From Thermocrinis sp. (GTDB taxonomy: Bacteria; Aquificota; Aquificia; Aquificales; Aquificaceae), in contig JAJHRQ010000014.1 in assembly GCA_020833645.1 (NCBI GenBank), positions 1-36,812 on the forward strand: a DNA stretch of 36,812 nucleotides, written 5' to 3'. The position numbers and the translations under genes were made by a program. A model generated the notes under the pieces. The model saw only the letters and a program-made list of their open reading frames with translations, was not told the origin of the DNA and did no database searches. Positions 10,438 to 36,812 of the stretch are shown here, one piece after another; the stretch's first letter is position 1, and each line of letters opens with the position of its first letter.

Positions 10438-12134
10438 TTTGCGAGAACCCTCTCCACCTCAGCTATATCTGTTATTCCTCTACGCACCTTTAATATTCCC
10501 GCCTCATAGAGGGTGCGCATACCCTTCCTTTTAGCAAGCTCTCTTATGTCTTCTGCGGTGGCACCTTTAACGATAAGCCTTCTTATTTCCTCGTCCACCT
10601 CTAAAATCTCATGAACTGCGGTTCTTCCTTTGTAGCCAGTTCCCTTACATTCATCACACCCCTTTGGGTTAGCCTTGTATATGGTTATATTCTCGTCTAA
10701 GCTTTTCAACACTCCCAATCTAACCAAAGCTTCCTTCGGAGTATCATCTACAAGCTTACACTTGGGACACAGTTTTCTTACTAACCTCTGTGCTACCACA
10801 AGTATTAGAGATGAACCCACTAAGAAGGGCTCTATACCCATATCAACAAGCCTTGTTATAGAAGAGGGAGCATCGTTGGTGTGCAAGGTAGAAAAAACCA
10901 AATGACCCGTAAGGGCTGCTCTTATGCCTATCTCTGCAGTTTCCGTATCTCTTATCTCACCTATGAGGATTATATCCGGGTCCTGTCTTAAGAAGGCTCT
11001 TAGAACTGTAGCAAAGGTAAGTCCTATTCTTTCGTTAACCTGTACCTGATTTAATCCGGGGATAGAAACCTCCACCGGGTCCTCTGCAGTCATTATGTTA
11101 ACATCGGGCGTGTTGCGTTCCATCAATGCAGCATACAAAGTAGTCGTTTTTCCCGAACCCGTCGGACCAGTTACCAAGATCATACCCCAAGGTTTCCAAA
11201 TTGCCTTTCTAAACTTTTCAAGGTCATCGGGTTCAAACCCAAGGTCCTCCAATCTCACACTTAAATACTTCTCTGCTTCCTGTATTCTCATAACTATCTT
11301 TTCACCATACACTAAGGGAACAGTAGAAACCCTTAGGTCTACCTTTTTATTACCTATCTTTGCCCTTATCCTACCATCCTGGGGCTTACGTCTCTCAGAA
11401 ATATCCAGATCTGCCATTATCTTAAACCTTGTAGTAAGTGCATCTTTGATATTTATGGGAAGTTCATGAAATATCCTTAGCACACCATCGACCCTATACC
11501 TAACTACTAGCTTTTTTTCCTGAGGCTCTATGTGTATATCGGATGCACCCAAATTTACTGCCTCCATAATAAGAAAGTTTGCAAGCCTGACTATGGGTGC
11601 TTCTCCAGTTTCTTTACTTATAGCATCCAAAAATAGTTCTGATTCTGATGTTTCTATCTCTATTTCGCTAACCTCGCTAATTTCCTCAAGTATGTCCTGT
11701 GTTTGTGGATATAGCCTGTTTAGTATACCTTCTATTGTTTTTTTAGGCGCTGCGTAGGACACTATGTTGTCAATCTTGCTGGCAAATCTCAGCTCATTTA
11801 TGGCGGATTGATTGAAAGGATTGACCATGACTACGGTTAGCTTGCCATCTTGATAGGAAACTGGCGCAATTAAATGCTTTTTTAGGATATCTTGAGGTAT
11901 TTTGTTGAGGATCCCGGCGGGTATGTTTATGCTTTTTAAGTCACCTTTCCACAACTTTTGTGGTGTATATTTTGTGTAAAAATCTAAAAGTTTTTCGTCA
12001 TTCATAAAACCAAGTCTTAGAAGGGTTGTTATAATGTCTTCGTTCTTTTCCTTGGAAGAGATTGCTTTTTGGGCTTGGTCTTTTGTTATGTATCCGACCC
12101 TACTAAGAAATTCTAGAAGCCTTGCCTCATCCAT
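10434..12134 (-). CDS. pilB: Type IV pilus / type II secretion assembly ATPase (PilB/GspE family)
   Basis: 566 residues. An N-terminal GspE_N-type domain (about residues 1-150) is followed by the ATPase: Walker A GPTGSGKTTTLYAAL, Asp box TAEDPVE, Walker B RQDPDIILIGEIRD and His box TGHLVFSTLHTNDA. A tetracysteine zinc motif (CPKC then CDEC) lies in the C-terminal part. Such hexameric ATPases drive pilin or pseudopilin polymerisation at the inner membrane. Whether this is PilB or GspE cannot be settled without the missing neighbours. The frame extends to 12164, but the ATG at 12134 has GAGGAAG about 7 nt upstream and reduces the overlap with panB to 8 nt. Confidence 0.88.
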   Translation of the reverse strand: MDEARLLEFLSRVGYITKDQAQKAISSKEKNEDIITTLLRLGFMNDEKLLDFYTKYTPQKLWKGDLKSINIPAGILNKIPQDILKKHLIAPVSYQDGKLTVVMVNPFNQSAINELRFASKIDNIVSYAAPKKTIEGILNRLYPQTQDILEEISEVSEIEIETSESELFLDAISKETGEAPIVRLANFLIMEAVNLGASDIHIEPQEKKLVVRYRVDGVLRIFHELPINIKDALTTRFKIMADLDISERRKPQDGRIRAKIGNKKVDLRVSTVPLVYGEKIVMRIQEAEKYLSVRLEDLGFEPDDLEKFRKAIWKPWGMILVTGPTGSGKTTTLYAALMERNTPDVNIMTAEDPVEVSIPGLNQVQVNERIGLTFATVLRAFLRQDPDIILIGEIRDTETAEIGIRAALTGHLVFSTLHTNDAPSSITRLVDMGIEPFLVGSSLILVVAQRLVRKLCPKCKLVDDTPKEALVRLGVLKSLDENITIYKANPKGCDECKGTGYKGRTAVHEILEVDEEIRRLIVKGATAEDIRELAKRKGMRTLYEAGILKVRRGITDIAEVERVLAK

Positions 12135-12921
12135 AGCTTTCTTCCTCAGAAGGAAAGCTTCCACTCTCTACATCCCTTTTGAACTCTTCCAAAGCCTTTC
12201 TAAAGAGCTCTGCAGAGTTCAGGTATCTCCTGACAAACTTTGGCTTTATATCTTCCACTAACCCCACAAGGTCGTAAAAAACGAGAACTTGCCCGTGGCA
12301 ATAGGGCCCCGCCCCTATGCCTATCGTTATAGACCTAGCAGATTGTGTGAGCTCCTTGGCAAGCTCTGTGGGCATTGCTTCGAGCACTATCATAAATGCA
12401 CCCGCTTCTTCTAATATTTTAAAATCCTTCTTAACTCTTTCTGCCTCCTCCTCCCTACCAACCACCCTGTAGCCTCCTATTGTATTTATCTTCTGAGGAG
12501 TAAAACCCAGATGCCCAACCACTGGAATGCCTATACGTACAAGCTTATAAACCAAATCCGCTATCTCTTCTCCTCCTTCCAACTTAACCGCGTTGGCTCC
12601 ACCTTCCTTTATTAGCCTACCACAATTTTCGATGGCTTTTTCCACGCTAACTTGATAGCTCATAAAGGGCATATCTGCTATAACAAAGCTTTCCTTGGCT
12701 CCCCTTCTGACTGCCTTTGTGTGATAGATCATTTCCTCTACGGTGACCTCCAAGGTGGAGTCTTTCCCCTGAAAAACCATACCCAAAGAATCACCTACCA
12801 GTATGCAATCTATACCAACCTGTTCACACAGTTTGGCAGATAGATAATCATAAGTGGAGATCATGGTGATCTTTTGTCCCTTTTCCTTTTTATTGAAAAG
12901 GGTCCGAATGGTGGTTTTCAT
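12127..12921 (-). CDS. panB: 3-methyl-2-oxobutanoate hydroxymethyltransferase
   Basis: 264 residues, the family length. PanB adds a one-carbon unit from methylene-tetrahydrofolate to alpha-ketoisovalerate to form ketopantoate, the first committed step of pantothenate and CoA synthesis. Signatures include TMISTYDYLSAKLCEQVG at the N-terminus, the metal-binding ILVGDSLGMVFQG, DMPFMSYQ, VKLEGG and the VVGHLGFTPQ segment. Its ATG shares one base with the stop of the preceding gene (TAATG), and its end overlaps pilB by 8 nt. Confidence 0.97.
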   Translation of the reverse strand: MKTTIRTLFNKKEKGQKITMISTYDYLSAKLCEQVGIDCILVGDSLGMVFQGKDSTLEVTVEEMIYHTKAVRRGAKESFVIADMPFMSYQVSVEKAIENCGRLIKEGGANAVKLEGGEEIADLVYKLVRIGIPVVGHLGFTPQKINTIGGYRVVGREEEAERVKKDFKILEEAGAFMIVLEAMPTELAKELTQSARSITIGIGAGPYCHGQVLVFYDLVGLVEDIKPKFVRRYLNSAELFRKALEEFKRDVESGSFPSEEESYG

Positions 12922-15588: not shown

Positions 15589-16272
15589 TTATAAATTTAA
15601 CATGGTCTGTATAAACTTTTCAACTCCCACGCTTGCCTTTTCCCTTATAACTATGTCCGCTATCTCGGATATGGGAGTGCTTTCTGGGTTTATCTCCACC
15701 ACCTTGGCACCATGCTCTTTTGCCACAAAGGGAAGAAGTCCCGCCGGATAGACAACCCCCGAGGTGCCTACAACTAAAAACACCTCACAGGACTTTGCCA
15801 AACGCTCAGCCTCTTCCAGAGCATCCATTGGCAAGCTCTCTCCAAACCAAACTACCGCTGGCCTTAAAAGCCCATTACAAAATTTACACTTTGGAGGTAT
15901 CTCCCTTAAGGGCACCTCGTAATTCTCATACTCCTTTCCACAGCTTGTGCACCGAACCCTCCATATGTTCCCATGAAGCTCTATGACCTTCTTTGTGCCC
16001 GCCCTTTGGTGTAAGCCATCCACATTTTGAGTAATTATTACCGCGTTCAGCTGTGCCAGAAGTTTGTGGGCTTTGTTGGGCTCTGCTTTACTTATAAGCT
16101 GTCTTCTCCAATCATACCACTCCCAAACCAGTTTGGGATTTTTTCTAAAAGCCTCCGGCGTTGCCAACTCTTCGGGCTTGAAGTTCTTCCAGAGCCCTTC
16201 CTTACCCCTAAAGGTGGGAATACCACTCTCCGCAGACACACCCGCCCCTGTTAAAACCACCAAATTCAGCAT
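15589..16272 (-). CDS. cobB: NAD-dependent protein deacylase (sirtuin)
   Basis: 227 residues, the length of short bacterial sirtuins. The Rossmann NAD site [15 protein letters not shown] lies at the N-terminus, followed by the catalytic [12 protein letters not shown] and the H of IELHGNIW, and a four-cysteine zinc site (CTSC, CKFC). The A-A-P-Y-R-W variation seen in desuccinylases is not evident; YDWRRQL is present, where R may bind acidic acyl groups. It removes acyl groups from lysines, for example on acetyl-CoA synthetase. The gene diverges from aioX with only 18 bp between start codons, so promoters of both must overlap or lie in the genes. Confidence 0.93.
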
Positions 16273-16290
16273 AAGATTTAATTTTTAACC

Positions 16291-17118
16291 ATGATTGTCC
16301 TTTTTGCACTCTTGCTGAGTGTTCTTTTAGCCTTTGGTAAGGATATAAAGGTAGGATTTACCGCGGTCATTACGAGGGAGGATGTAAAAACCATAAAGGA
16401 CTTTTTGGACTATCTTTCAAGGAAAACGGGCTTTAGCTTTAGTCCAGTCTTTGCCAGGTCCTACGATGAAATGGATTTTTATCTTTTCAACGGAAAGGTG
16501 GATATAGCTTACATCTGCGGTGCCCCCTACGTGGAAGGGCACAAAAAATAAGGTTATTACCTCGTCGCGGTCCCACTTACCTCCAATGGTCCCTACTACT
16601 ATTCTTATGTTATAACTAAAAAAGACAGACCTTATCGGTCAATCCTTAATTTTGAGGGAAAACCTTACGCCTTTTCAGACCCAAAGTCCAACTCGGGCTC
16701 CGTCGCCCCCACTTACTTTCTTCTGAAAAACGGATACTCTCCCACCGAGTTTTTTAAACCCTTGATATACACCTACTCCCATTACGAGTCTATCATGGCA
16801 GTCTACAAGGGCTTTGTGGAGGGTGCCAGCGTAGATAGTATAGTCTATGAACATACCAGCCTAGTGGCACCGCACATTACCAACGAGCTTAAAGTTATCC
16901 AAAAGTTTGGACCCTTTCCGGCCACGCCTATCGTAGCGAGCAAAAGACTGGACCCAAATATAGTGAAAGCAATAAAGAAAGCCCTTTTAGAGATGCATCA
17001 GGATGAGGAGGGAAGAAAAATCCTAAAGAACATGGGCATATTGGGCTTTACCTACCTTGAGCCAAAACATTACGAAACCATAGCCCAGATGATAAGCTAC
17101 ATAAAGAAAAATAAATGA
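16291..17118 (+). pseudogene. aioX: AioX-like periplasmic arsenite-binding protein, interrupted by in-frame TAA
   Basis: Signal peptide at residues 1-16 (MIVLFALLLSVLLAFG), then a PhnD-type periplasmic binding fold: IKVGFTAVITREDVKTIKDF, VDIAYICGAPYV, later AFSDPKSNSGSVAPTYFLL and SVDSIVYEH. In AioX proteins a single cysteine binds As(III) and signals to the kinase AioS; C76 in ICGAPYV is a good candidate. The frame is continuous to 17118 except for a TAA at 16549-16551, where GHKK is followed by GYYLVAVP. A Tyr codon (TAC or TAT) is the likely original. Restored, the protein is 275 residues. It overlaps aioS by 4 nt (ATGA). No Shine-Dalgarno precedes the ATG. Confidence 0.8.
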
Positions 17119-18778
17119 AGGCTTTTGTTGAAAGGCTCAGAAAAGCCAGCATAGGACTAAAACTCTCCCTCACTTTCGTTTTTGTAATCGCCCTTTGTTC
17201 TCTACCTATGTCTTTGCTAACTATAAACTATCTGAGCAACAAACTAAGACAACATGTGATAAACACCATTGAAGAGTTTGTGCAATCTCAGAAGGATGAG
17301 TTCATAGAGCTTATCCTTATGGAAAACTACTGGAGAGCCTTTAACAAAATTGAAGCCCTCTCTCAAATACCGGGCGTAAAGGAGGTGGTCCTTGTGGATG
17401 CCCACAACCGCATAATTGCCTCTTCAAAGCCAGAGGAGAAGGTGGTGGGAAGATCCTTTTCTAACAACTCAGATTACCTAAAAATTCCCATAGAAAGCTA
17501 TTCATACACTATAGGCTATCTCTACTATCAGATCAACAGGGAATACATAGAGGGGATCGTATCTCCCCTTAGGTTTATTACCTTGGCTTTTACTTTCTTC
17601 TTCACCCTTGTGGTCATACTCTTGGGAGTGTTTGTTTCTCTTAGAATAAATGAAAGGCTTAAGCAAGTGAGGGAGATGATAGAGGAGTTTAAAAGGGGAG
17701 GTATGCCCATCAAGAAGGATTTTTGGGAGAGGGAGGAGCTAACCGAGTTGGCAGACTTTGTGCATAAAAGCTTGAGCGACCTTAAGGGTATCTTTTCCAA
17801 CCTGGAGTTTGCAAGAGACTTTTATGAAAGCCTATTTAACACCCTACAGGAGATCGTTCTAATACTGGACGAGACGGGAACCATATACTTTTGCAACAAG
17901 GCAGTAGAGAACTATGGCTTTTCGGTGGAGAACCTGCTTGGAAGAAAGGTGGGAGTGCTTTTGGAAGGACCGAGGGAAAGAAGAGAGGTAAGGGAGAGCC
18001 TAAGGCAGAAGGGAACCTACACGGGTGTGGTAAAGCTTAGAAACAAGAAAGGAGAGGAGAGCTACGCCTTGGCGGTATTAGTGCCTTGGGTGGATGCTTT
18101 TATCTTTACCTTAAAGGATATAACGGAGCTAAAAAGGTCTGAAGAATTGGTAAAGAGGATGGAGGTCTTTTCCCTGCTTGGGGAAATGAGCGCCTACCTT
18201 GCCCATGAGCTAAAAAATGCTACCCTTCCTCTGAAGCTTTTATCTGTGGAACGAGGATGACGTAGAGGTGGTTAGAGCGTCTATAGAGAGGGTTGATAAA
18301 ATAGTGAGTAGCTTTTTACAGTTTGCCAGACCTGTGGAGGAGGAAAAAAAGGGAGTTTAGCTCTTGGCAGTTGGTGGAGGATGTGTTAAAGATCTACGAG
18401 CCCGCCATAAAGAAGAAGGACATAGACTTGGTTTTGGATGTGATGGACTTTAAACTATACACCAACAAAACCGCCTTGGAGATAATACTCAGCAACCTAC
18501 TCAAAAACGCCATAGAGGCGGTGGATGGAAAAGGTAAGATAGAAATTTCCCTCAGGAAAGAAGGAGAAAAGACAGTCCTTATGGTAAAGGACAATGGGCA
18601 CGGGATACCCAAAAAACACATAAAGAAGGTCTTTGATCCCTTCTTTAGCACAAAGCGGGATAGCACTGGGCTTGGTCTTTCTACAGTAGCCAGGTATGTG
18701 CAAATGCTTGAAGGAAGGCTTAGTGTTTTCTCCGAGGAAGGAAAAGGTTCTACCTTTTTAGTGGAGGTGAAGGCATGA
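17115..18778 (+). pseudogene. aioS: AioS-like sensor histidine kinase, two apparent frameshifts
   Basis: Transmembrane helix (about 16-38), periplasmic sensor region, second helix (about 152-174), HAMP-like linker, PAS domain (about 235-335), then the phosphoacceptor helix SAYLAHELKNATLPLKL with H364. The frame breaks at a T4 run (18238-18241) and again at an A7 run (18344-18350). Removing one base at each gives PLKLYLWNEDDVEVV and VEEEKREFSSW and restores 553 residues with N box NLLKNAIEAV and G boxes DNGHGIP and TGLGLST. Two 1-nt insertions fit the length exactly (1664 minus 2 is divisible by 3). The kinase should take the AioX signal and phosphorylate AioR. A sequencing error in the homopolymers would make it intact. 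Confidence 0.85.
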
Positions 18779-20100
18779 GAGTTATAGTAGTGGATGATGA
18801 TTTTGGGGTTTTACATTCTATAAAAAGGGTCCTCAGTTCAAAGGGCTTTGAGGTGGTTGCCCTACAGTCCCCGGAAGGCTTGGAGGAGTATCTGCCAGAG
18901 AGCAACCTGCTTTTGATGGATATAAGGCTGGAGGGTGAGAGAGGAACGGATGTGGTGGAAAAACTGAGGGCAAAGGGTTTTAACATTCCGGTGATCTTTA
19001 TAACCGCCTATGCAGATGCGGACGCGGTGGTAAGTGCCTCAAGGCTTGGTGCAGTGGATGTGCTAAAAAAGCCTTTTAGTAGCCAAGAGCTTTTGCAGGC
19101 GGTAAAGAACGCCCTGGAGTTTGTTCCAAAGCTTGAGCCCTCTTACAGCAGGGAATTAAAGGTAATTGGCTCCTCAAGGGCTATGTTTGAGGTGTTCAAA
19201 AAGGTGGGCTTAGCCTGTCAAAATGATCTGAATGTTTTGATAACAGGAGAAACGGGGGTAGGAAAGGAAGTTGTAGCCAAACTCATCCACGAGAACTCCC
19301 CGAGGAAAGAGGGACCCTTTGTAATACTGCACTGCCCAGCCATACCCTGGGACCTCTTTGAGGCGGAGCTCTTTGGTTATGTGAAGGGTGCCTTTACGGG
19401 CGCATTGGTGGATAAAAAGGGAAAGGCTAAGTTGGCGGAAGGCGGAACGCTATTTTTAGACGAGATAGGAGATTTGCCCTACAAGCTCCAAGCCAAGCTT
19501 TTGGCTTTTGTGGAAAGGAAGAGCTTTTTCCCCTTGGGTAGCTCAAGGGAGGAGAAGGCGGATGTAAGACTCATCTTTGCCACCAACAGGGACCTAAAAA
19601 AGATGGTGGAAGAAGGAAAGTTTAGAGAGGACCTCTACCACAGAATAAGCCAGTTGGAAATACACGTGCCACCACTCAGGGAAAGAAAAGAGGACATAAA
19701 ACCCTTGGTGGAATACTTTATAGCCCTTGCCAACGCCGAGTTGGGAACGAGCGTGGAGGGAGTGGAAGAACAAGCGCTAAGAAAACTCATGGACTACTCC
19801 TTCCCGGGGAATGTTAGAGAGCTGAAAAACTTAGTCTATAAAGCGGTGCTTGAAACAAGGTTTGGAAAGATAAAGGACTTTGCCATTCAGCAGGGAGAAA
19901 ACATCTCCTCCTTTGAAAAAGCTCTGGAACTTTTGCTTGATGCGGTGCCTGAGGAGGAACTTCCAAACCTCCTTGATAGGGTGGAGCTATACCTTATAAA
20001 AAAGCTCCTTGAAAGATACTCAGGGAACAAATCCAAAGTGGCGAGCCTTTTGGGAATATCCAGGAACACCTTGGAAAGCAGACTAAAGAACCTCAAGTAA
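18775..20100 (+). CDS. aioR: AioR-like NtrC-family sigma-54 activator
   Basis: 441 residues in three domains. The receiver (1-120) has the acidic pocket VVDDD, phosphoacceptor D49 in LLMDIRLEG, T in FITAYAD and K in VLKKPFS. The AAA+ domain carries Walker A GETGVGKE, the sigma-54 contact loop GAFTGA, Walker B GGTLFLDEIGD and arginine finger region REDLYHRI. A Fis-type helix-turn-helix closes the protein (NKSKVASLLGISRNTLESRL). GAFTGA shows it activates sigma-54 RNA polymerase. It overlaps aioS by 4 nt and is followed by two palindromes and a -24/-12 promoter before aioB, which are its probable targets. The gene itself is intact. Confidence 0.93.
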   Translation: MRVIVVDDDFGVLHSIKRVLSSKGFEVVALQSPEGLEEYLPESNLLLMDIRLEGERGTDVVEKLRAKGFNIPVIFITAYADADAVVSASRLGAVDVLKKPFSSQELLQAVKNALEFVPKLEPSYSRELKVIGSSRAMFEVFKKVGLACQNDLNVLITGETGVGKEVVAKLIHENSPRKEGPFVILHCPAIPWDLFEAELFGYVKGAFTGALVDKKGKAKLAEGGTLFLDEIGDLPYKLQAKLLAFVERKSFFPLGSSREEKADVRLIFATNRDLKKMVEEGKFREDLYHRISQLEIHVPPLRERKEDIKPLVEYFIALANAELGTSVEGVEEQALRKLMDYSFPGNVRELKNLVYKAVLETRFGKIKDFAIQQGENISSFEKALELLLDAVPEEELPNLLDRVELYLIKKLLERYSGNKSKVASLLGISRNTLESRLKNLK

Positions 20101-20104
20101 AATT

Positions 20105-20121
20105 TGCTCAATTTTTGAGCA
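20105..20121. promoter_or_regulatory. Upstream activator site 1 (candidate AioR binding palindrome)
   Basis: TGCTCAATTTTTGAGCA is a palindrome with near-perfect 8-bp arms around one base. It begins 4 bp after the aioR stop. Its centre (20113) is 21 bp, two helical turns, from that of site 2, and about 93 bp upstream of the -12 element. Confidence 0.65.
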
Positions 20122-20125
20122 CCCA

Positions 20126-20142
20126 TTGTCAAAATTTGAGCA
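20126..20142. promoter_or_regulatory. Upstream activator site 2 (candidate AioR binding palindrome)
   Basis: TTGTCAAAATTTGAGCA shares the right arm TTTGAGCA with site 1 and has a left arm differing at two positions. Same 17-bp length and symmetry. Paired sites on one DNA face are usual for NtrC-type activators. Confidence 0.6.
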
Positions 20143-20194
20143 TTCTCAGGGATGTTCCCTTTTGAAAAGTCTTGATTTTTCAATGTTTCAAAAT

Positions 20195-20211
20195 TGGCAC
20201 GAAATTTGCAT
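20195..20211 (+). promoter_or_regulatory. Sigma-54 (-24/-12) promoter of aioBA
   Basis: TGGCAC-GAAAT-TTGCAT fits the sigma-54 consensus TGGCAC-N5-TTGCW at every fixed position. Transcription should start near 20220, giving a leader of about 28 nt with GGAGG at 20236-20240 before the aioB ATG. Confidence 0.88.
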
Positions 20212-20247
20212 ACGTAAAAAAGGTGAAACCCGTTAGGAGGTGTGGTG

Positions 20248-20748
20248 ATGTTTATGACAAAAATCTCCAGAAGGACCTTCATAGGGGGGAGCGCAGCAAT
20301 GAGCGCTCTCTTGACCTCGCCAGAGCTGGTGAAGGCTCTTACGAGCCAACCCTACTCAAGGGTAAAGGTGGCAAACATCAAAAACCTGAGGGTAGGCGAG
20401 CCGGTGAGCTTTAACTACCCAGATAAGGACTCTCCCGCATTGCTCATCAAGCTTGGAGAAAGGGCTTATGGCGGTGTGGGACCGGATGGAGATATAGTGG
20501 CATACTCTTCCCTGTGCACCCACATGGGCTGTCCCGTTGTCTATTCCAAGAAGCGGTTTTTGTGTCCGTGCCACTACTCTATGTTTGACCCTGCAAAGAA
20601 CGGACAGACCTATCAAGGGCACGCTTCTGAGTGGCTCCCTCAGATAATCCTACGCCTTGAACCAAGGACAGGAGACATATACGCGGAGGGAGTGGAAGGG
20701 CTCATTTGGGGAAGAGTTAGAAATGTTTTGAAAGTTACCAAAAAATAA
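20248..20748 (+). CDS. aioB: Arsenite oxidase small subunit, Rieske [2Fe-2S] protein
   Basis: 166 residues. A Tat signal lies at the N-terminus (KISRRTFIGGSAAMSAL), so the folded protein goes to the periplasm, probably bringing AioA with it because AioA has no signal. The Rieske site is CTHMGC (C90, H92) and CPCHYS (C106, H109); C95 and C108 could form the stabilising disulfide. The protein passes electrons from the Mo centre of AioA to a cytochrome c or similar acceptor. In-frame GTGs at 20242 and 20245 are too close to the GGAGG (20236-20240); the ATG at 20248 has a 7-nt spacing. The stop and the AAGGAGGT of aioA abut. Confidence 0.93.
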   Translation: MFMTKISRRTFIGGSAAMSALLTSPELVKALTSQPYSRVKVANIKNLRVGEPVSFNYPDKDSPALLIKLGERAYGGVGPDGDIVAYSSLCTHMGCPVVYSKKRFLCPCHYSMFDPAKNGQTYQGHASEWLPQIILRLEPRTGDIYAEGVEGLIWGRVRNVLKVTKK

Positions 20749-20762
20749 AGGAGGTGTGAGCC

Positions 20763-23384
20763 ATGGCATTGTTTGCAAGAAAGGACCGCATACCAATACC
20801 ACCAAAGGATGCCCAAAAATTTATCACCGTCTGCCAATACTGTACTGTAGGCTGCGGCTACTATGTCTACAGGTGGCCAGTGGGCAAGGAGGGTGGTCTA
20901 AAGCCCGAGGAGAACGCCTTAGGCATAGACTTCACCAAGCAGGGAGTAGCCCTTCAAACCCAATCAATAACTGAAACTATGCACAATGTAGTAAAGGGTG
21001 AGGACGGCAAGCTTTACAACATACTCATAGTGCCCGCGAAGGACTCGCCCGTAAACAGAGGAAACTACTCCATAAGGGGTGGAACCAACGCACAAGCAGC
21101 CTATTCACCCACAAAGCCCACCAGAGACAGGCTACTCTACCCTATGGTAAGAGTTGGAGATCAGTTTATGCCCGTCAGCTGGGATGAAGCCATAGACCTT
21201 ATCGCAAGGGTAGTGAAGGGTGTCAAGGACAAATGGGGTCCGGATTCTATAGCGATGAAGGTCTACGACCATGGAGGCTCTGGCGCTGGCTTTGAGGAAA
21301 ACTGGGCGGTAGGAAAGTTCTTCTTTGTAGCGGTGGGTACCAGAATGCTCTCCATTCACAACAGACCCGCCTATAACTCCGAGGTGTGGGGGCAAAGGGA
21401 AAGGGGTGTCCACGAGCTTAACTACACCTACGAGGACGCAAGGCTCGCAGACACCATTGTGCTCTGGGGTTCTAACCCCTTTGAAACTGCATCCGTCTTC
21501 TACACAGAGCAAATGCTACCAAACCTCCAAGGTGCAACCGTAGAGGAAAAGAAGAAAGAGTATATGAAGGGAGAGCCCGCAGAACCCGCAAGGATGATCA
21601 TCATAGACCCCAGAAAAACCTCTAGCGTAACGGTTGCTCAATCAGTTGCACCCGATAGGATCCTCCACCTTAGACCAAACCTTGGAACAGACTACGTGCT
21701 TGCCAACGCCACAGCAAGGGCTGTCTGGGAAAAGGGATGGTGGGACAAAGAGTTTGTGGAAAAGAGGACAGACCTGAAAACCTTTGAAGATTACAAGAAG
21801 AAATCCCTAATGCTTGATGTTCCTTACGACGAGTTTATGAGCAGGGTGGAAAGGCTAACGAGCGTCAAAAGGGAAGACATAGAAAAGGCAGCGGAGTGGA
21901 TCGCCAAGCCCAAAGCGGGAGGCTTTAGAAGGAGAACTCTTATCATATACGAAAAGGGTGTAATATGGGGCTATAAGAACTACGACACCATTGCAGCCAT
22001 TGCCCAACTTGCTGCACTTACTGGAAACTACGGAAAGCCCGGCACGGGCTGTGGAAGACAGGGCGGACACCAAGAGTGCTACTTTAGACCTCACGACAAG
22101 TCCAGGGCAAAGCTTGTGGGCTCCATATACGCAGGAGGACCACCGCCCAACATAGACGAGTATGTGAAGAACGACCCAAGGGCGAAGGTCTATTTTGTGT
22201 CCGGAACAGACCCATATCTATCCACACCCAACTCTCAAGCCTATAAGAAGAGGGTGCACGAAAGGACGCTTGCGCTTACAAGATATCTCTCCGAACAGGC
22301 AAAGCTGGCAGGAGAGCCCGCCGGCTCTGAGGATAGGGCAAAGAGGATCCTTGAAGGTCTTGAAAAGACAAGCGGTTTGTTAATGGTGGTTATAGACATG
22401 TATGAGACTGAAACTGCCAGGGATGCCCACGTCATACTACCCGCAGCGGGCTGGGGAGAAAAACCCACCACCTCCATAAACTGCAACAGCAGGCTTCTCA
22501 GGATCTACGAACAATTTATGGCACCTCCCGGAGACGCTAAGCCCGACTGGTGGATCTTTGGAAGGATAGCCACCAGGATGAAGGAACTATACGAAGCGGA
22601 AGGAAACTACGAAGAAGCCAAATACTGTGCGGGTATGGACTGGAAGAGTGCGGAGGAAGTATTCTTGGACGGTGCAAACGAGTTTCCGGACAACAGGGTC
22701 TCGGAGGAAGACGAGGCAATGCTACCCGCAGAGTGCTACAAGGGTGTGACCTACGAATATCTCAGAAAGGTAGGACAAAAGGGCATACAGACTCCCGTTC
22801 GCATAGACCCCAAGACGGGACAGCTCGTGGGCACAAAGAGAAGGTATGTGCACAAGTTTGGCACACCGGATGGTAAGTTCAAGTGGTACGGCACAGACCC
22901 ATGGGATCCCGACCCCATGAAGTTCTATCCACCTCAGATCACCAAATACTTCCAAGACGGCAACGATAAGAAATTCCCCTTCTGGTTCACCAACGGAAGG
23001 TCGCAGATAATTTGGCAGACGGGCTACAACGACAGGCATCTGCCTGAGAAGGTCTATACCATACCTCTGCCCTACATAGAGATGAACCCAGAGGATGCCA
23101 AAAGGCTCGGAATTAAGAGCGGAGACCTGGTGGAGGTGTATAACTTGGAGGGCAACGCCATAGCCCTTGTGTATGTGAACGACGCACCCCCTCCCGGAAT
23201 GATCTACGGCACAATGTATCACTGGAAAGGCTCCCTCAATCACCTTACCACCGACTACACAGACCCTAAAACCACCATACCTTGGTATAAGGCTTCAAGG
23301 GTGGCAGTAAGGAAGCTAAAGGGCAACCTGGAGGATGTGCTCAAGAACACCTCCCTACTGCCCATAAACGACTTCACTACCTAA
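20763..23384 (+). CDS. aioA: Arsenite oxidase large subunit, molybdopterin and [3Fe-4S]
   Basis: 873 residues, DMSO-reductase-family catalytic subunit that oxidises As(III) to As(V) at a bis-MGD molybdenum centre. The cluster motif CQYCTVGC (C24, C27, C31) has the spacing of the AioA [3Fe-4S] site, with no fourth cysteine. VYRWPVG, the SIRGGTNAQAAYSPT segment and DHGGSGAGFEENWAVGKFFF follow; the region after GCGRQGGHQECY matches the AioA active-site environment, and no Cys or Ser ligates Mo, as expected. Length agrees with AioA rather than the respiratory arsenate reductase ArrA. No signal peptide is present, consistent with export together with AioB. It may also act on thio-arsenic species; that is not readable from sequence. 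Confidence 0.95.
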   Translation: MALFARKDRIPIPPKDAQKFITVCQYCTVGCGYYVYRWPVGKEGGLKPEENALGIDFTKQGVALQTQSITETMHNVVKGEDGKLYNILIVPAKDSPVNRGNYSIRGGTNAQAAYSPTKPTRDRLLYPMVRVGDQFMPVSWDEAIDLIARVVKGVKDKWGPDSIAMKVYDHGGSGAGFEENWAVGKFFFVAVGTRMLSIHNRPAYNSEVWGQRERGVHELNYTYEDARLADTIVLWGSNPFETASVFYTEQMLPNLQGATVEEKKKEYMKGEPAEPARMIIIDPRKTSSVTVAQSVAPDRILHLRPNLGTDYVLANATARAVWEKGWWDKEFVEKRTDLKTFEDYKKKSLMLDVPYDEFMSRVERLTSVKREDIEKAAEWIAKPKAGGFRRRTLIIYEKGVIWGYKNYDTIAAIAQLAALTGNYGKPGTGCGRQGGHQECYFRPHDKSRAKLVGSIYAGGPPPNIDEYVKNDPRAKVYFVSGTDPYLSTPNSQAYKKRVHERTLALTRYLSEQAKLAGEPAGSEDRAKRILEGLEKTSGLLMVVIDMYETETARDAHVILPAAGWGEKPTTSINCNSRLLRIYEQFMAPPGDAKPDWWIFGRIATRMKELYEAEGNYEEAKYCAGMDWKSAEEVFLDGANEFPDNRVSEEDEAMLPAECYKGVTYEYLRKVGQKGIQTPVRIDPKTGQLVGTKRRYVHKFGTPDGKFKWYGTDPWDPDPMKFYPPQITKYFQDGNDKKFPFWFTNGRSQIIWQTGYNDRHLPEKVYTIPLPYIEMNPEDAKRLGIKSGDLVEVYNLEGNAIALVYVNDAPPPGMIYGTMYHWKGSLNHLTTDYTDPKTTIPWYKASRVAVRKLKGNLEDVLKNTSLLPINDFTT

Positions 23385-23391
23385 AACCAAC

Positions 23392-23415
23392 GGGGGCTTA
23401 TGCCCCCTCTCTTGT
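23392..23415 (+). terminator. Terminator after aioA
   Basis: A perfect 6-bp stem GGGGGC-TTAT-GCCCCC (23392-23407) followed by a pyrimidine-rich TCTCTTGTT tract, 8 bp after the aioA stop. It should end the aio transcript before the TPR gene, which has its own promoter. Confidence 0.75.
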
Positions 23416-23556
23416 TAAAACTGCAAAACACCTTACTTTAAGAGTTTTTCACATACACCTGCAGTTCGCCTAAAGGCTTTTGGAAGTGGGAAGGGATCCA
23501 TCTGGTGCAAAGGTGGTAGCTGGACTTTTTTGCTTTGGAGATATTTTAGTTTCCCA

Positions 23557-23585
23557 TTGTCAAATTTTATTAGCCAGATTATATT
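23557..23585 (+). promoter_or_regulatory. Sigma-70 type promoter of the TPR gene
   Basis: TTGTCA and TATATT are separated by exactly 17 bp. The start would be near 23592, just before AAGGAGGAG, 3-8 nt ahead of the ATG. The rest of the 23416-23556 gap shows nothing recognisable. Confidence 0.6.
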
Positions 23586-23607
23586 TAATCCAGAAGGAGG
23601 AGTAAAC

Positions 23608-24087
23608 ATGGAAGACCTGAAGAGGTCTGCAGAAGAACTATTTCAAAAGGCTTATATACTTCACATGGCGGGCGAGCTTGATAAGGCAATAGAACTTTAC
23701 GAAAAGGCTGCGGAACTTTATCCAACCGCTCAAATATACACCTTTATGGGTTGGGCATACAGCATGAAGGGAGATTACGAAACCGCCATAGAATTGTGCT
23801 TGAAGGCTATAGAGCTAGACCCAGATTTTGGCAATCCTTACAACGATATAGGCTCATACCTTATCGCCTTGGGAAGGTATGACGAAGCCATTCCTTGGCT
23901 GAAAAAGGCTATAACCGCCAAAAATTACGAGCCAAGGCACTATCCACACATAAACCTTGCCCGCGTCTATCTGGCAAAGGGTATGTTCAAGGACGCCCTG
24001 CAGGAGCTGGAAACCGCCATCAAGATCGCCCCAGACTATAGACCGGCCCACATTCTAAGACATCAGATATTGACAATGCTGAACTAA
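23608..24087 (+). CDS. TPR-repeat protein
   Basis: 159 residues made of about four tetratricopeptide repeats. The repeats can be read as AYILHMAGELDKAIELYEKA, TFMGWAYSMKGDYETAIEL, NDIGSYLIALGRYDEAIPWL and NLARVYLAKGMFKDALQELE, each with the small-large-Gly/Ala-Tyr pattern. TPR proteins serve as adaptors; no partner can be named. The open frame extends upstream to 23530, but the ATG at 23608 has AGGAGG in front and a promoter fitting that start. No signal peptide, so cytosolic. It ends 1 bp before the stop of the converging MBL gene. Its place between aio and sox may be incidental. Confidence 0.85.
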   Translation: MEDLKRSAEELFQKAYILHMAGELDKAIELYEKAAELYPTAQIYTFMGWAYSMKGDYETAIELCLKAIELDPDFGNPYNDIGSYLIALGRYDEAIPWLKKAITAKNYEPRHYPHINLARVYLAKGMFKDALQELETAIKIAPDYRPAHILRHQILTMLN

Positions 24088-24088
24088 A

Positions 24089-24783
24089 TTATTTGCTTTC
24101 AAAGAGCACTTCCCTCTCTATCTCAAAGTAAAGGTGATAGGCATTAACCGGATTGACGTCAAAGAAAACGGGTAGTTGGGAATAAGCTGGGTCTATCTTT
24201 AGCATCTCTTCGTTGGCTTTTGCACGAACCTCTTCCACGCTTAATCCCTCTTCGTAAAGCTTTCTTACCACGCTCCTTATGTCTTGGATGTATTTTTTAG
24301 TCCACGCTACCTGCCTCTTGATGTTTTCCTTTCCAAAGAGAGGCTCTCCATGACCTATGAGGAGAACTTCCGGCTCCAGCTCAAGGATTTTGTCCAAGCA
24401 TTCCATCCAACTTTTGGAATTACCAGAGCCGAGGAAGGGTACCCTTCCACCAAAGACTATGTCCCCGGATATGAGAACCTTCCTTGAGGGAATCCAAAGC
24501 ACCAGATCTCCATTGGTATGTGCCTTACACCAGTGATGGATTTCAAACCGTTCTCCTCCCAACAGGATCACCAAGCTTTTATCTACCAGAATGTCCGGAG
24601 CCATCTGCACGATGCCCTTCATTAAGTCCTTTCCGAGCACGCCCAACCTTGCGTTGAACATCCTTTGGGCTTCATCACTGCCCAAATATTCAAAGGCGTA
24701 GGGATGGGCTATGATGATGGCTCCCTTTTCTTTAAAGGCTTTTGCTCCGTAAAAGTGATCTGTGTGATAGTGGGATACACATT
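24089..24783 (-). pseudogene. MBL-fold metallohydrolase lacking its N-terminus, joined to soxB
   Basis: The open frame with a start begins at 24685, but homology clearly runs further upstream: VSHYHTDHFYGAKAF supplies the metal motif HxHxDH at about 24745-24775. Downstream are AHTNGD, SGDIVFGG and IGHGEP, so all zinc ligands of the metallo-beta-lactamase fold are present. What is missing is everything before the first motif, including the usual 80-100 residues and a signal peptide. The missing part ends exactly where SoxB breaks off. Such hydrolases accompany sox genes (SoxH-like) but their role is not established. Function after truncation is doubtful. Confidence 0.75.
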
Positions 24784-26191
24784 GTCCGCCACATCCTCCC
24801 AGAGCGCCAAAAGGTCTCTGCCTTTCCTCTTGAGCAAGAATACTTGAGGATAAGTAATTCCGAGCACATTATAAACATCCTCAACCCTTACGGGACTGTT
24901 TGGTAGAACTGCTGGTCCCCACCTGTAGCCGGGGGAGGTTGCCACATCCAAGCTCAATACCGCGTCCACACCGTGGAAGTAGTCCGCCAAGGCTTCGCCT
25001 ATGAGCCTATCCCAAGTGCTGTATAGGGTGTCCCTCTTGTAGAGGAACGTCCTTGTGGTAGCTATAACTTCGTTGAACTCCTTCTCGTAAGGTTTATACC
25101 ATTTTTCCACCAGTTCCTTAGCACCCTTATCTTCGGGTATAACATCCGCAAGAATGGGAATAAGCTTGAACCTATAGCCCACCACCCTTTTGTTTCTCAC
25201 CTCCAGGTCCATCACTCCCACGAACTTTCCGTGGCTTCCGGGAGAAACAATGAGCGTATCTCCCACCTTTACCGGAGTGGGCGTTACATCGTGGGTGTGT
25301 CCAGAAATTACCACATATATACCCTTCACCATCTTCATGAGGGCTATATCCAGGGGTAAGCCGTCGTGGGAAAGTAGCACCACCAGGTCCACCTTGTGCT
25401 TTTCCCTGAGTTCGTTCACATAGTTCCGCAGTTCCTCCAGTCTTACACCAAAACGCCAGCCCTCCGTAAAGACTCTCGGGTTTGCTATGGGAGTAAATGG
25501 GAATGAGCTTCCTATGATGCCCACTTTTACGCCATTAACTTCCCTTACGTCGTAGGGTGGGAATATGAGGTCTCCAAAGATATCGTCGGTTATGTTGTAA
25601 GAGATAAACTTGGCCTTTAAGTGTTTATTGACGATCTCCAAAAACTTTTCCTTTCCTACCGTCACATCCCAGTGGGCAACGATGTAGTCGTAGCCCACAT
25701 AGTTTAGCCAATCCACTATCGCCATTCCGTCGGTTTTTAGGGCTATGCTAGAGGTTACCCAAGTATCTCCACCGTCAAGTATAATGCATCTGTCCCCTTC
25801 CCCTCTGATTGACTAAAGTTTTTATAACCGTTGCCATCTGGGGGGCACCGCCCGTTTTTCCATACTCCTTGGCGAGCCTCAAAAAGCTCATGCAGGTCAT
25901 GGTGTATGCTTCCAATGTGTTGGGCTTTAGGTTGTAATACCTGAGAAAGTCCATACCCGCCAAAAAGCCGGGTGTTCCCCTCAGGTTCTCGGGGGCAATA
26001 AGGTTCATCGGCTCGGGGAAATAAACAGGATTTAGGTGCCCGTGGATGTCTGAAGTAAAGACCAAAGACACATTACCGTAAGGCTTAGTATCCAAAAGCC
26101 TTTCAAAGCTTGGCTTTTTGCCAAAGGACAGCCCACTAAAGCTAAGGGCTATTACCGCTGAGTATCCGAGTAGTTCCCTTCTTGACAGCAT
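24775..26191 (-). pseudogene. soxB: SoxB sulfate thiol hydrolase, frameshifted and C-terminally truncated
   Basis: Starts MLSRRELLGYS (ATG at 26191, AGGAGG 6-12 nt before), a Tat signal. The dimetal 5'-nucleotidase-type motifs are present: FTSDIHGHLNP, DGGDTW, AHWDVTVG, LLSHDGLPLD and SGHTHD. One base is missing in the C4 run at 25794-25797 (G4 on the coding strand); adding it joins NQRGRG to IILDGGDTW. The frame then runs to LLALWEDVADNV and jumps into the MBL gene near 24780, losing the roughly 100 residues that close a SoxB protein (normally about 560-590). SoxB removes sulfate from the SoxY-bound thiosulfate adduct in the periplasm. If the deletion is real, Sox turnover would stall. Confidence 0.85.
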
Positions 26192-26237: not shown

Positions 26238-26911
26238 TTACTTATTAACGGGCGATTTAGGATGTAAAAGGTACGTAGCTATGTTTATAACATCCTCAGG
26301 AGACAGCACTCCATGATAGCCAAACCGGGGCATAGCGGAACAGGGAAAAGCATGCCAAGCGTTATAAATGATCTTATAGACCGTCTTTAGCTTTTCCAAA
26401 CCTTCAGGAGTGTTCATGTTCTCCTTGGTTATTTCATACCTTTTCCCATAACCCGTAAGCTGTGGTCCCAAGGTTCCACCGGGAACTCCCTTCTCTATAA
26501 TATGGCAGGCGTAGCAGTTTCCGCCCTTGTCGGTGGGTTTATCGGAAAAACCATAGCTTGCATACCTTCCACCCCTTGAGCTCTCCACCAGCTTTTTACC
26601 CTCTTGCCAATCTCCCCAAGCGATGCCCCACTGAGGATAGACTATATTCTTGTTCTCAAGCTCTATAACCTTTTGTATTGCCTGGGGGGCATGGCTTCCA
26701 TTGAGGGATACTGGGAGCATATCCTTTGGGATTCGTCCTGCTCTATCTTCCATAAGAACTTTGGGTCCTGTTCAAAGCCGGAAAGTAGCACCCGCCTAAC
26801 CTCTTCTGGCTTCACCCCAGCCTTTTTTTTGGTGGGTTGCTTTTTCTGTTGGGCGGGAGAAATACCAACCAAACCAATGGCTAAAAGTCCCAAAAACAAA
26901 GTTTTTCTCAT
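26238..26911 (-). pseudogene. soxX: SoxX cytochrome c subunit, one apparent frameshift
   Basis: Signal peptide MRKTLFLGLLAIGLVGISPA, a lysine-rich stretch, then the SoxX domain: ICSQYPS, NIVYPQWGIAWGDWQEGKKL, heme motif CYACH and the distal-ligand region CSAMPRFGYHG. The frame breaks at the G6 run 26684-26689 (C6 on the coding strand); one additional C gives AMPPQAIQKVIELE and a 224-residue protein. SoxX pairs with SoxA to couple thiosulfate oxidatively to the SoxY cysteine and passes electrons to cytochromes. It sits 3 bp after the soxA stop. The error type suggests it may be intact in the organism. Confidence 0.88.
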
Positions 26912-36088: not shown

Positions 36089-36123
36089 GGCTATCACCTC
36101 CTTTATAGGTTTTCTATGAGAAA

Positions 36124-36151
36124 AATTTAGTATGCTTTTATCAAATGTCAA
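36124..36151 (-). promoter_or_regulatory. Promoter of hsp20
   Basis: Minus strand: a perfect TTGACA (36146-36151) and TAAATT (36124-36129) with a 16-bp spacer. Start about 36115, giving a leader of some 27 nt with AGGAGGTGAT. Confidence 0.6.
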
Positions 36152-36188
36152 GGGGTAAAAACCTTCCAGCGCCCATGCCAAAAGTTGA

Positions 36189-36557
36189 TCTCTTTGCCAA
36201 AAACTGGTTTATAATAAAAACAAGGTTTTTGAGGGTCCCACTGGGACCCTTGTCAACTTGGCAACTGAATATGGGTCAGTGTGTCCTCCCGGTGGATTGT
36301 TTCAATTTTGAGGGGGTCGGGCTTTGTTTTTTAAGATTTTCGGGAGACAGTCTCACCGTAAAGCCGTAATTATGTAATGCCGTGATGCCGTAATTATGGT
36401 CACTGGTGGAAAGTATTGAGAGACAAGGACTTAAATTTGACAATAACAGACTCAGCTTTGCATGATCTCGGATCTCGGAAAATTAACTTCATTTGAAAGG
36501 GGTGCCCCTTGACAAAATGATTAATATGTCTTATCTTAGTTAATGTGGTCGTTTGGG
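36189..36557. repeat. Leader-like dispersed repeat, copy B (inverted relative to copy A)
   Basis: From 36232 to 36280 it matches the 14090-14136 block of copy A with the hairpin GGGTCCC-ACT-GGGACCC. From 36353 to 36515 it matches 13711-13870, with five of the octamers (36353-36392) on the minus strand. The 36285-36350 part is unlike copy A, which holds the RHH gene there. A further 50-bp segment (about 36505-36557) leads into the CRISPR-type repeat and is missing in copy A. No gene is seen here. Confidence 0.75.
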
Positions 36558-36586
36558 GTTCCTAATGTACCGTGTGGAGTTGAAAG
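36558..36586 (+). CRISPR. Solo CRISPR-type repeat (copy B)
   Basis: 29 bp starting GTTCCTAATG and ending GGAGTTGAAAG. It has the look of a type I/III repeat (GTT start, TTGAAA(C/G) end) and of Aquificales repeats as I recall them. It follows an AT-rich leader-like region as the first repeat of an array would, but no second repeat appears within 226 bp. No cas genes are in the window. Confidence 0.5.
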
Positions 36587-36812
36587 TAGCTTGCAAAAGT
36601 GTAAAGCTTTTTTTAGGAGCAACTTACTTTTTCGCGCTAAATCTAAGATTATCTCTCTCCCACCTCTAAGGCATTATTTTTAGAGCGGCCTCATACCATG
36701 AACAACAAAAGAGACAAGAAGGTCTAACACCCCCAAGGGATATAAGAATACACGTTTTCAAATTTTTTACTAATTTATACCCTACTTCAGCAGCTGGACC
36801 TTATCGGCACTA
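36587..36812. other. AT-rich end of window, nothing recognised
   Basis: I find no gene, repeat or RNA in this stretch. Short open frames, such as one starting MYRVELK, are made partly of the repeat and lack ribosome sites. Confidence 0.5.

Follow-up and report, generated by a model that had tools for sequence, protein, structure and literature searches.

The arsenite oxidase operon aioBA of a Thermocrinis species from the phylum Aquificota is very probably driven by an arsenite-responsive sigma-54 promoter under the control of AioXSR, in which paired sites of the form TGNTCAA-N3-TTGANCA would be bound by the response regulator AioR. The core of this reading, namely the sigma-54 promoter, the AioR-type sites and AioXSR control in Aquificota, is well supported by the conservation of the putative control region and by coupled changes in its half-sites. 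The stretch of DNA analysed here ("the window", 36,812 nucleotides) is contig C30 of the draft genome G000 (1.26 Mb, 87.6% complete), and the complete genome of a congener, G002, served as the reference for gene comparison.

The aio genes lie on the forward strand of the window in the order aioX, aioS, aioR, aioB, aioA, which is also their order in G002, where all of them are intact. The product of aioX (16291..17116) is a PhnD-like periplasmic arsenite-binding sensor; the gene is interrupted and 95% identical to its intact G002 counterpart. The sensor histidine kinase gene aioS (17115..18778) has a broken frame when aligned to the intact 557-aa aioS of G002, the product of which contains HisKA and HATPase_c domains. 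All seven residues that form the arsenite pocket of AioX in NT-26 (Tyr88, Cys106, Tyr131, Ser161, Ser163, His192 and Asp210; PMC5908839) are kept in the window's frame as well as in nine Aquificota AioX proteins. The aioR gene (18775..20100) is intact and encodes a sigma-54 activator-type response regulator with, according to Pfam, a receiver domain (PF00072), an AAA+ domain (PF00158) and a Fis-type helix-turn-helix (HTH_8, PF02954), which is 97% identical to AioR of G002 and carries the GAFTGA motif already reported in the preliminary description at residues 205-210 (19387-19404). It is followed by aioB (20248..20748) for the Rieske small subunit (TIGR02694, 199 bits with a cut-off of 95.65) and aioA (20763..23384) for the molybdopterin large subunit (TIGR02693, 1100 bits with a cut-off of 359). 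A CRISPR array suspected at the window end from repeated G002 matches was not borne out, as no repeats were found in 36100-36812.

Between the aioR stop codon, which ends at 20100, and aioB there is a gap of 141 bp that was read directly. The aioB ATG at 20248 is preceded by in-frame GTG codons at 20242 and 20245 and by the Shine-Dalgarno sequence AGGAGGT on the forward strand (20235-20241). Two 17-bp palindromes had been described in this gap with a spacing of 21 bp; the start-to-start spacing is indeed 21 bp and the first of them, UAS1 (TGCTCAATTTTTGAGCA, 20105-20121), is perfect with 7/7 arm pairs, but the second, UAS2 (TTGTCAAAATTTGAGCA, 20126-20142), is imperfect with 5/7. Both are predicted AioR dimer sites. 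Downstream, the -24/-12 promoter was found at consensus as claimed: TGGCACGAAATTTGCA (20195-20210, forward strand) has the -24 GG at 20196-20197 and the -12 GC at 20208-20209, 10 bp apart within TGGCAY-N5-TTGCW, and predicts a transcription start for aioB near 20220. The palindrome centres lie about 95 bp (UAS1) and 74 bp (UAS2) from the -12 element, within 2 bp of the 93 and 72 bp given before. No sigma-70 promoter was found between aioR and aioB, and the region 16000-23700 gave five matches versus 7.6 expected. A further element, CTTGATTTTTCAA (20171..20183, forward strand), lies between the UAS pair and the promoter; its CTTGAT is found again in several related Aquificota sigma-54 promoters, either 23 or 34 bp before the -24 box, two positions that differ by one helical turn. 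The element is perhaps the site of a DNA-bending protein.

When the 141-bp gap was shuffled by dinucleotides, 4.4% of the shuffles contained a perfect palindrome with 7-bp arms, so that a lone palindrome of this kind is nothing unusual in DNA this rich in AT. The pair of palindromes with 7 and 5 arm pairs at 21 bp was seen in 0.24% of these shuffles, and TGGCAC-N5-TTGCA in 0 of 5000. In its own assembly TGCTCAANNNTTGAGCA occurs once without mismatch, at the aioR-aioB gap, and with up to two mismatches at one further place besides UAS2. The main weight of the case for a functional control region rests on the comparison across species.

AioB scored above the cut-off in 14 of 136 Aquificota genomes, and 13 aioB loci had readable upstream DNA; the main aioB of G087 was left out as it lies at a contig end, and the second, AioB-like gene of that genome was counted separately. 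Lack of the palindrome pair in close relatives had been named beforehand as grounds for giving up the idea of an AioR operator, and the scan of relatives found a pair 20-22 bp apart together with a sigma-54 promoter at all 13 loci. Both sites of the pair agree with at least 9 of the 12 consensus positions in 12 of the 13 upstream regions and with 8 of 12 in all 13. By comparison, shuffling produced a pair in 3 of 2600 regions, and 298 kb of other Aquificota DNA contained none. These figures are favourable, because the 12-position consensus was derived in part from the tested loci and the counts are raised by close relatives; spacing and symmetric change between species are less biased by the choice of consensus than the pair counts. 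A chance palindrome is ruled out by this conservation upstream of Aquificota aioB genes.

The distances of UAS1 and UAS2 to the start of the -24 box are 90/69 bp for the window and G002, 90/68 for G059 and G022, 91/69 for G111, 99/77 for G016, 100/80 for G079 and 115/94 for G011, G065, G069 and G064. In G014 a perfect site follows a second dyad at a distance of 21 bp, and the pair of G060 is looser. Each of the 13 loci has a sigma-54 box, the weakest being those of G014 (CGGCAC...CTGCA) and G060 (TGGCAT...TTGAG). Across species the half-sites change in pairs, as TGCTC/GAGCA, TGTTC/GAACA and TGGTC/GACCA, and position 3 with its partner 15 is found as G-C, C-G, T-A or A-T. Arm pairs are kept at 80.7% in register, as against 15-45% with the arms slid by 1-3 columns, and the covariation score was reached by 7 of 500 shuffles, a contrast that is inflated by related rows. 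The pair of palindromes predicted as the AioR motif is thus conserved, but the motif itself must be widened to TGNTCAA-N3-TTGANCA.

The sites are found in several gene orders. The gene immediately before aioB is aioR in the window, G002, G059, G022 and G111. In G011, G014, G060, G064, G065 and G069, aioX and aioB are transcribed divergently with the sites in between. The aioXSR genes are apart from aioBA in G016 and G087; in G016, aioR and aioX are located at 1.554-1.558 Mb, about 0.4 Mb from aioB at 1.142 Mb, which has kept its sites. This bears on the idea that the palindromes act in the RNA, as a terminator or processing hairpin at the 3' end of aioR. UAS1 does begin 5 bp past the aioR stop codon, and the RNA of this region has a folding energy of -14.3 kcal/mol (z -3.0), but on the forward strand no T-run comes after it, the terminator scan flags the minus strand only, no Rfam family matches, and the sites stand between divergent aioX and aioB in six genomes and far from aioR in G016. 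An element of the aioR transcript is extremely improbable, since the sites are kept independently of gene order; a terminator or other RNA element was rejected on this genomic context and the missing T-run.

The same comparison can be used to weigh whether a regulator other than AioR occupies the palindromes while AioR acts elsewhere. Candidates exist: short palindromes are targets of ArsR/SmtB-type repressors or activators, and the DNA upstream of aioB is bound in Thiomonas by one such protein, AioF (review: PMC7533571). In G079, moreover, the sites are kept without a close AioR or any AioX. On the other hand, two sites with a two-turn spacing at 69-115 bp upstream of a sigma-54 box are the textbook layout for an activator, the geometry is seen again in G002 before another gene with a sigma-54 promoter and in G016 close to the promoter of aioXSR and the porin, and an unsystematic look beside the loci revealed no common ArsR gene. 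A different binding protein is therefore very unlikely, and AioR remains the favoured candidate.

The preliminary description had spoken of a complete circuit, and this part does not hold for the window as it stands. There is a TAA at 16549-16551 of aioX where G002 has TAC, aioS, compared with that of G002, lacks 11 bp near 18246 and has gained 1 bp near 18342, and rpoN falls into a contig gap; an intact aioX-aioS-aioR set beside aioBA is present in G002 and absent from the letters of the window. These breaks could mean that the sensing arm has truly decayed, with aioX and aioS as pseudogenes and aioBA under AioR alone or under another kinase, a reading that concerns the sensing arm only and is compatible with the promoter explanation preferred here. 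Its support comes from the lesions themselves and from G022 and G059, which keep AioR and the sites without AioX and seem to be controlled in this way. Against it, AioX and AioS still match the congener at 94-96% identity away from the breaks, and 4 of the 21 comparable window genes (aioX, aioS and two unrelated neighbours, soxB and the gene at 26241-26911) are broken relative to G002, which suggests a draft with many faults. For these reasons decay of the sensing arm is unlikely. Given that no part is missing from the complete congener and that so many comparable genes are broken, the breaks, like the absence of rpoN, are most likely faults of assembly or sequence. Both soxB (24775-26191), which lacks roughly the last 100 residues, and the 26241-26911 gene are frame-broken, and G002 carries about 1.5 kb of extra DNA in this region.

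rpoN was not found in the G000 assembly and is present in the congeners G001-G004. Contig C47 ends inside a stretch homologous to the rpoN neighbourhood of G002 (10.6-kb search), and a true loss of rpoN from G000 is countered by this contig end just short of the gene. A sigma-54 promoter, TGGCACACTTTTTGCA, before the P-II (glnB) gene on another contig of the assembly (L007, C39, 47802-47817, minus strand) is an independent sign of sigma-54 use in the same genome.

In some relatives, the input to AioR may be of another kind. G022 and G059 have aioR and the sites with no AioX match and no aioS beside aioR, which implies that the signal there must differ. The loci of G022 (L045), G059 (L043) and G111 (L071) all have aioR upstream of aioB and conserved sites with no adjacent aioX or aioS, and the sole AioX match of G111 is a distant PhnD-like protein.

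Taken as a working model, periplasmic AioX would bind arsenite through its conserved Cys106-type pocket and signal through AioS, which would phosphorylate AioR. AioR would then sit as two dimers on the 17-bp palindromes, two helical turns apart, and assemble into an AAA+ oligomer whose GAFTGA loop would open the complex of RNA polymerase and sigma-54 at TGGCAC-N5-TTGCA.

Control by AioR and RpoN with tandem UAS is documented in Proteobacteria (PMC2848651, PMC3834237, PMC5335332), with tandem palindromes and -24/-12 boxes reported upstream of aioB in 12 proteobacterial aioXSR operons by Li 2013 (PMC3834237). The same paper stated that aioXSR occurs in Proteobacteria only, a later one (2018, PMC5908839) that it is limited to Alpha- and Betaproteobacteria, and one of the two inferred that regulation is different outside Proteobacteria. 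The alphaproteobacterial systems of Rhizobium NT-26, Agrobacterium GW4/5A and Sinorhizobium M14 share with the window the one-strand order aioX-S-R-B-A (PMC3834237, PMC6011840, PMC5335332), TGGCAC-N5-TTGCA before aioB, two palindromic UAS, a GAFTGA activator and the Cys pocket of AioX. Betaproteobacteria with divergent aioXSR and aioBA (Herminiimonas, Thiomonas, Paraburkholderia; PMC2848651) have the same module and promoter type, and their layout is that of the six Aquificota genomes with divergent aioX, whereas the window and G002 are collinear.

The operator is where the two groups part. The NT-26 and pSinA sites are 16-bp GTTC-N8-GAAC palindromes 33 bp apart, in agreement with the footprinted GTTCGGATTTCCGAAC (PMC5335332), whereas those of the window are 17-bp TGNTCAA-N3-TTGANCA palindromes 21 bp apart; the proteobacterial form GTT-N10-AAC was tried on the window and rejected. 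In two betaproteobacterial regions that were read, neither GTTC-N8-GAAC nor the Aquificota motif stands out. The recognition helix reads SRNTL in the window AioR as opposed to SRTTLWEKM in alphaproteobacterial AioR, and the window AioR is 34-37% identical to proteobacterial AioR, which is below its identity to some other sigma-54 regulators. In a tree with a weak backbone, Aquificota and proteobacterial AioR form separate clades, and forcing them into one costs 20 log-likelihood units with a borderline AU p of 0.0545. That Aquificota AioR works like its proteobacterial namesake is well supported; that it belongs by common descent to the AioR family proper is less certain. As judged against open-licence papers, the phylum, the operator (17-bp sites spaced 21 bp instead of 16-bp sites spaced 33 bp) and the divergent AioR are new.

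The NtrC-type enhancer, TGCACC-N5-GGTGCA, is also 17 bp long and is read by a recognition helix with RNTL. The window sites resemble it as 17-bp dyads with TGC/GCA ends, RNTL is present in the recognition helix of the window AioR, and the best NCBIfam match of this AioR is TIGR01818 (ntrC), below the cut-off; the inner half-site TCAA/TTGA and the context of arsenite oxidase rather than nitrogen are the differences. Among the loci compared, a plasmid of Azonexus (L133, 4148-9696) carries genes annotated as "arsenate reductase (azurin)" subunits, which are preceded by two cytochrome c peroxidases. Since two such peroxidases also precede iodate reductase (Idr) loci, the enzyme encoded there is probably not an arsenite oxidase.

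Similar arrays are found at other genes of the relatives. In G002 a second predicted AioR array (L042, 10904-11009), consisting of TGCTTAATTTTTGAACA and TGCTCAGTCCTTGAGCG 21 bp apart and 90/69 bp from TGGCACGCTTTTTGCA, precedes the gene for a 411-aa FAD disulphide oxidoreductase (11037-12272); the assembly to which the window belongs yielded no such second array. An ORF directly after aioR in G016 likewise has sites and a sigma-54 box in front of it; it is "porin-like" from a reading of its sequence and matched no family. Behind the aioXSR genes of G087 come a sigma-54 box and a TtrB/NrfD/TtrA-like operon, and a second AioBA-like pair of this genome (L069, 3083-5934; 29% identity to AioA and 43% to AioB) has a sigma-54 box and weak sites at exactly 90/69 bp. 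The arsenite pocket of AioX is kept in the modules of both G087 and G016. AioXSR-like modules adjoin a tetrathionate-reductase-like molybdoenzyme (TtrABC-like) in G087 (L121, 551-9913) and the porin-like ORF together with a tetrathionate-reductase-like enzyme in G016 (L120, 24-9779). In G079 aioB shares its sites with a divergently oriented ORF; this ORF has a separate sigma-54 box and resembles the V4R-domain protein beside aioXSR in G016. ORFs with a V4R domain or similar lie by the aio genes at 3771-4256 of L120 (G016) and 3622-4011 of L073 (G079), and a remnant-like stretch lies at about 10744-10885 of L042 in G002.

A pattern combining the right half of a UAS with a sigma-54 box gave 16 matches in the 136 Aquificota genomes versus none for the reversed control. 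Eight are at aioB on its own strand, one is the divergent promoter of G079 and one the second target of G002, and these ten fall in G000, G002, G022, G059, G079 and G111. Other matches are in G020, G027, G046 and G054, all of which lack AioB over the cut-off, and in G023; those of G020 and G027 appear to be shared coding sequence, matched probably by chance. Taken jointly, the FAD disulphide oxidoreductase of G002, the porin-like ORF of G016, the tetrathionate-reductase-like operon and second AioBA-like enzyme of G087 and the V4R-like ORF of G079 hint, tentatively, that Aquificota might run an arsenic-responsive sigma-54 regulon of their own beyond aioBA, with its own operator and an activator whose recruitment may have been independent of that of proteobacterial AioR; as a whole this is a possibility that we hold with some doubt.

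These findings suggest that the arsenic-triggered switch of Proteobacteria also works in Aquificota with a binding code of its own. The presence across Aquificota of AioS, AioR, AioX with its full arsenite pocket and a conserved array of operator and promoter would extend the module to a thermophilic phylum, and a concrete operator sequence and geometry can now be tested, along with named candidate targets beyond aioBA.
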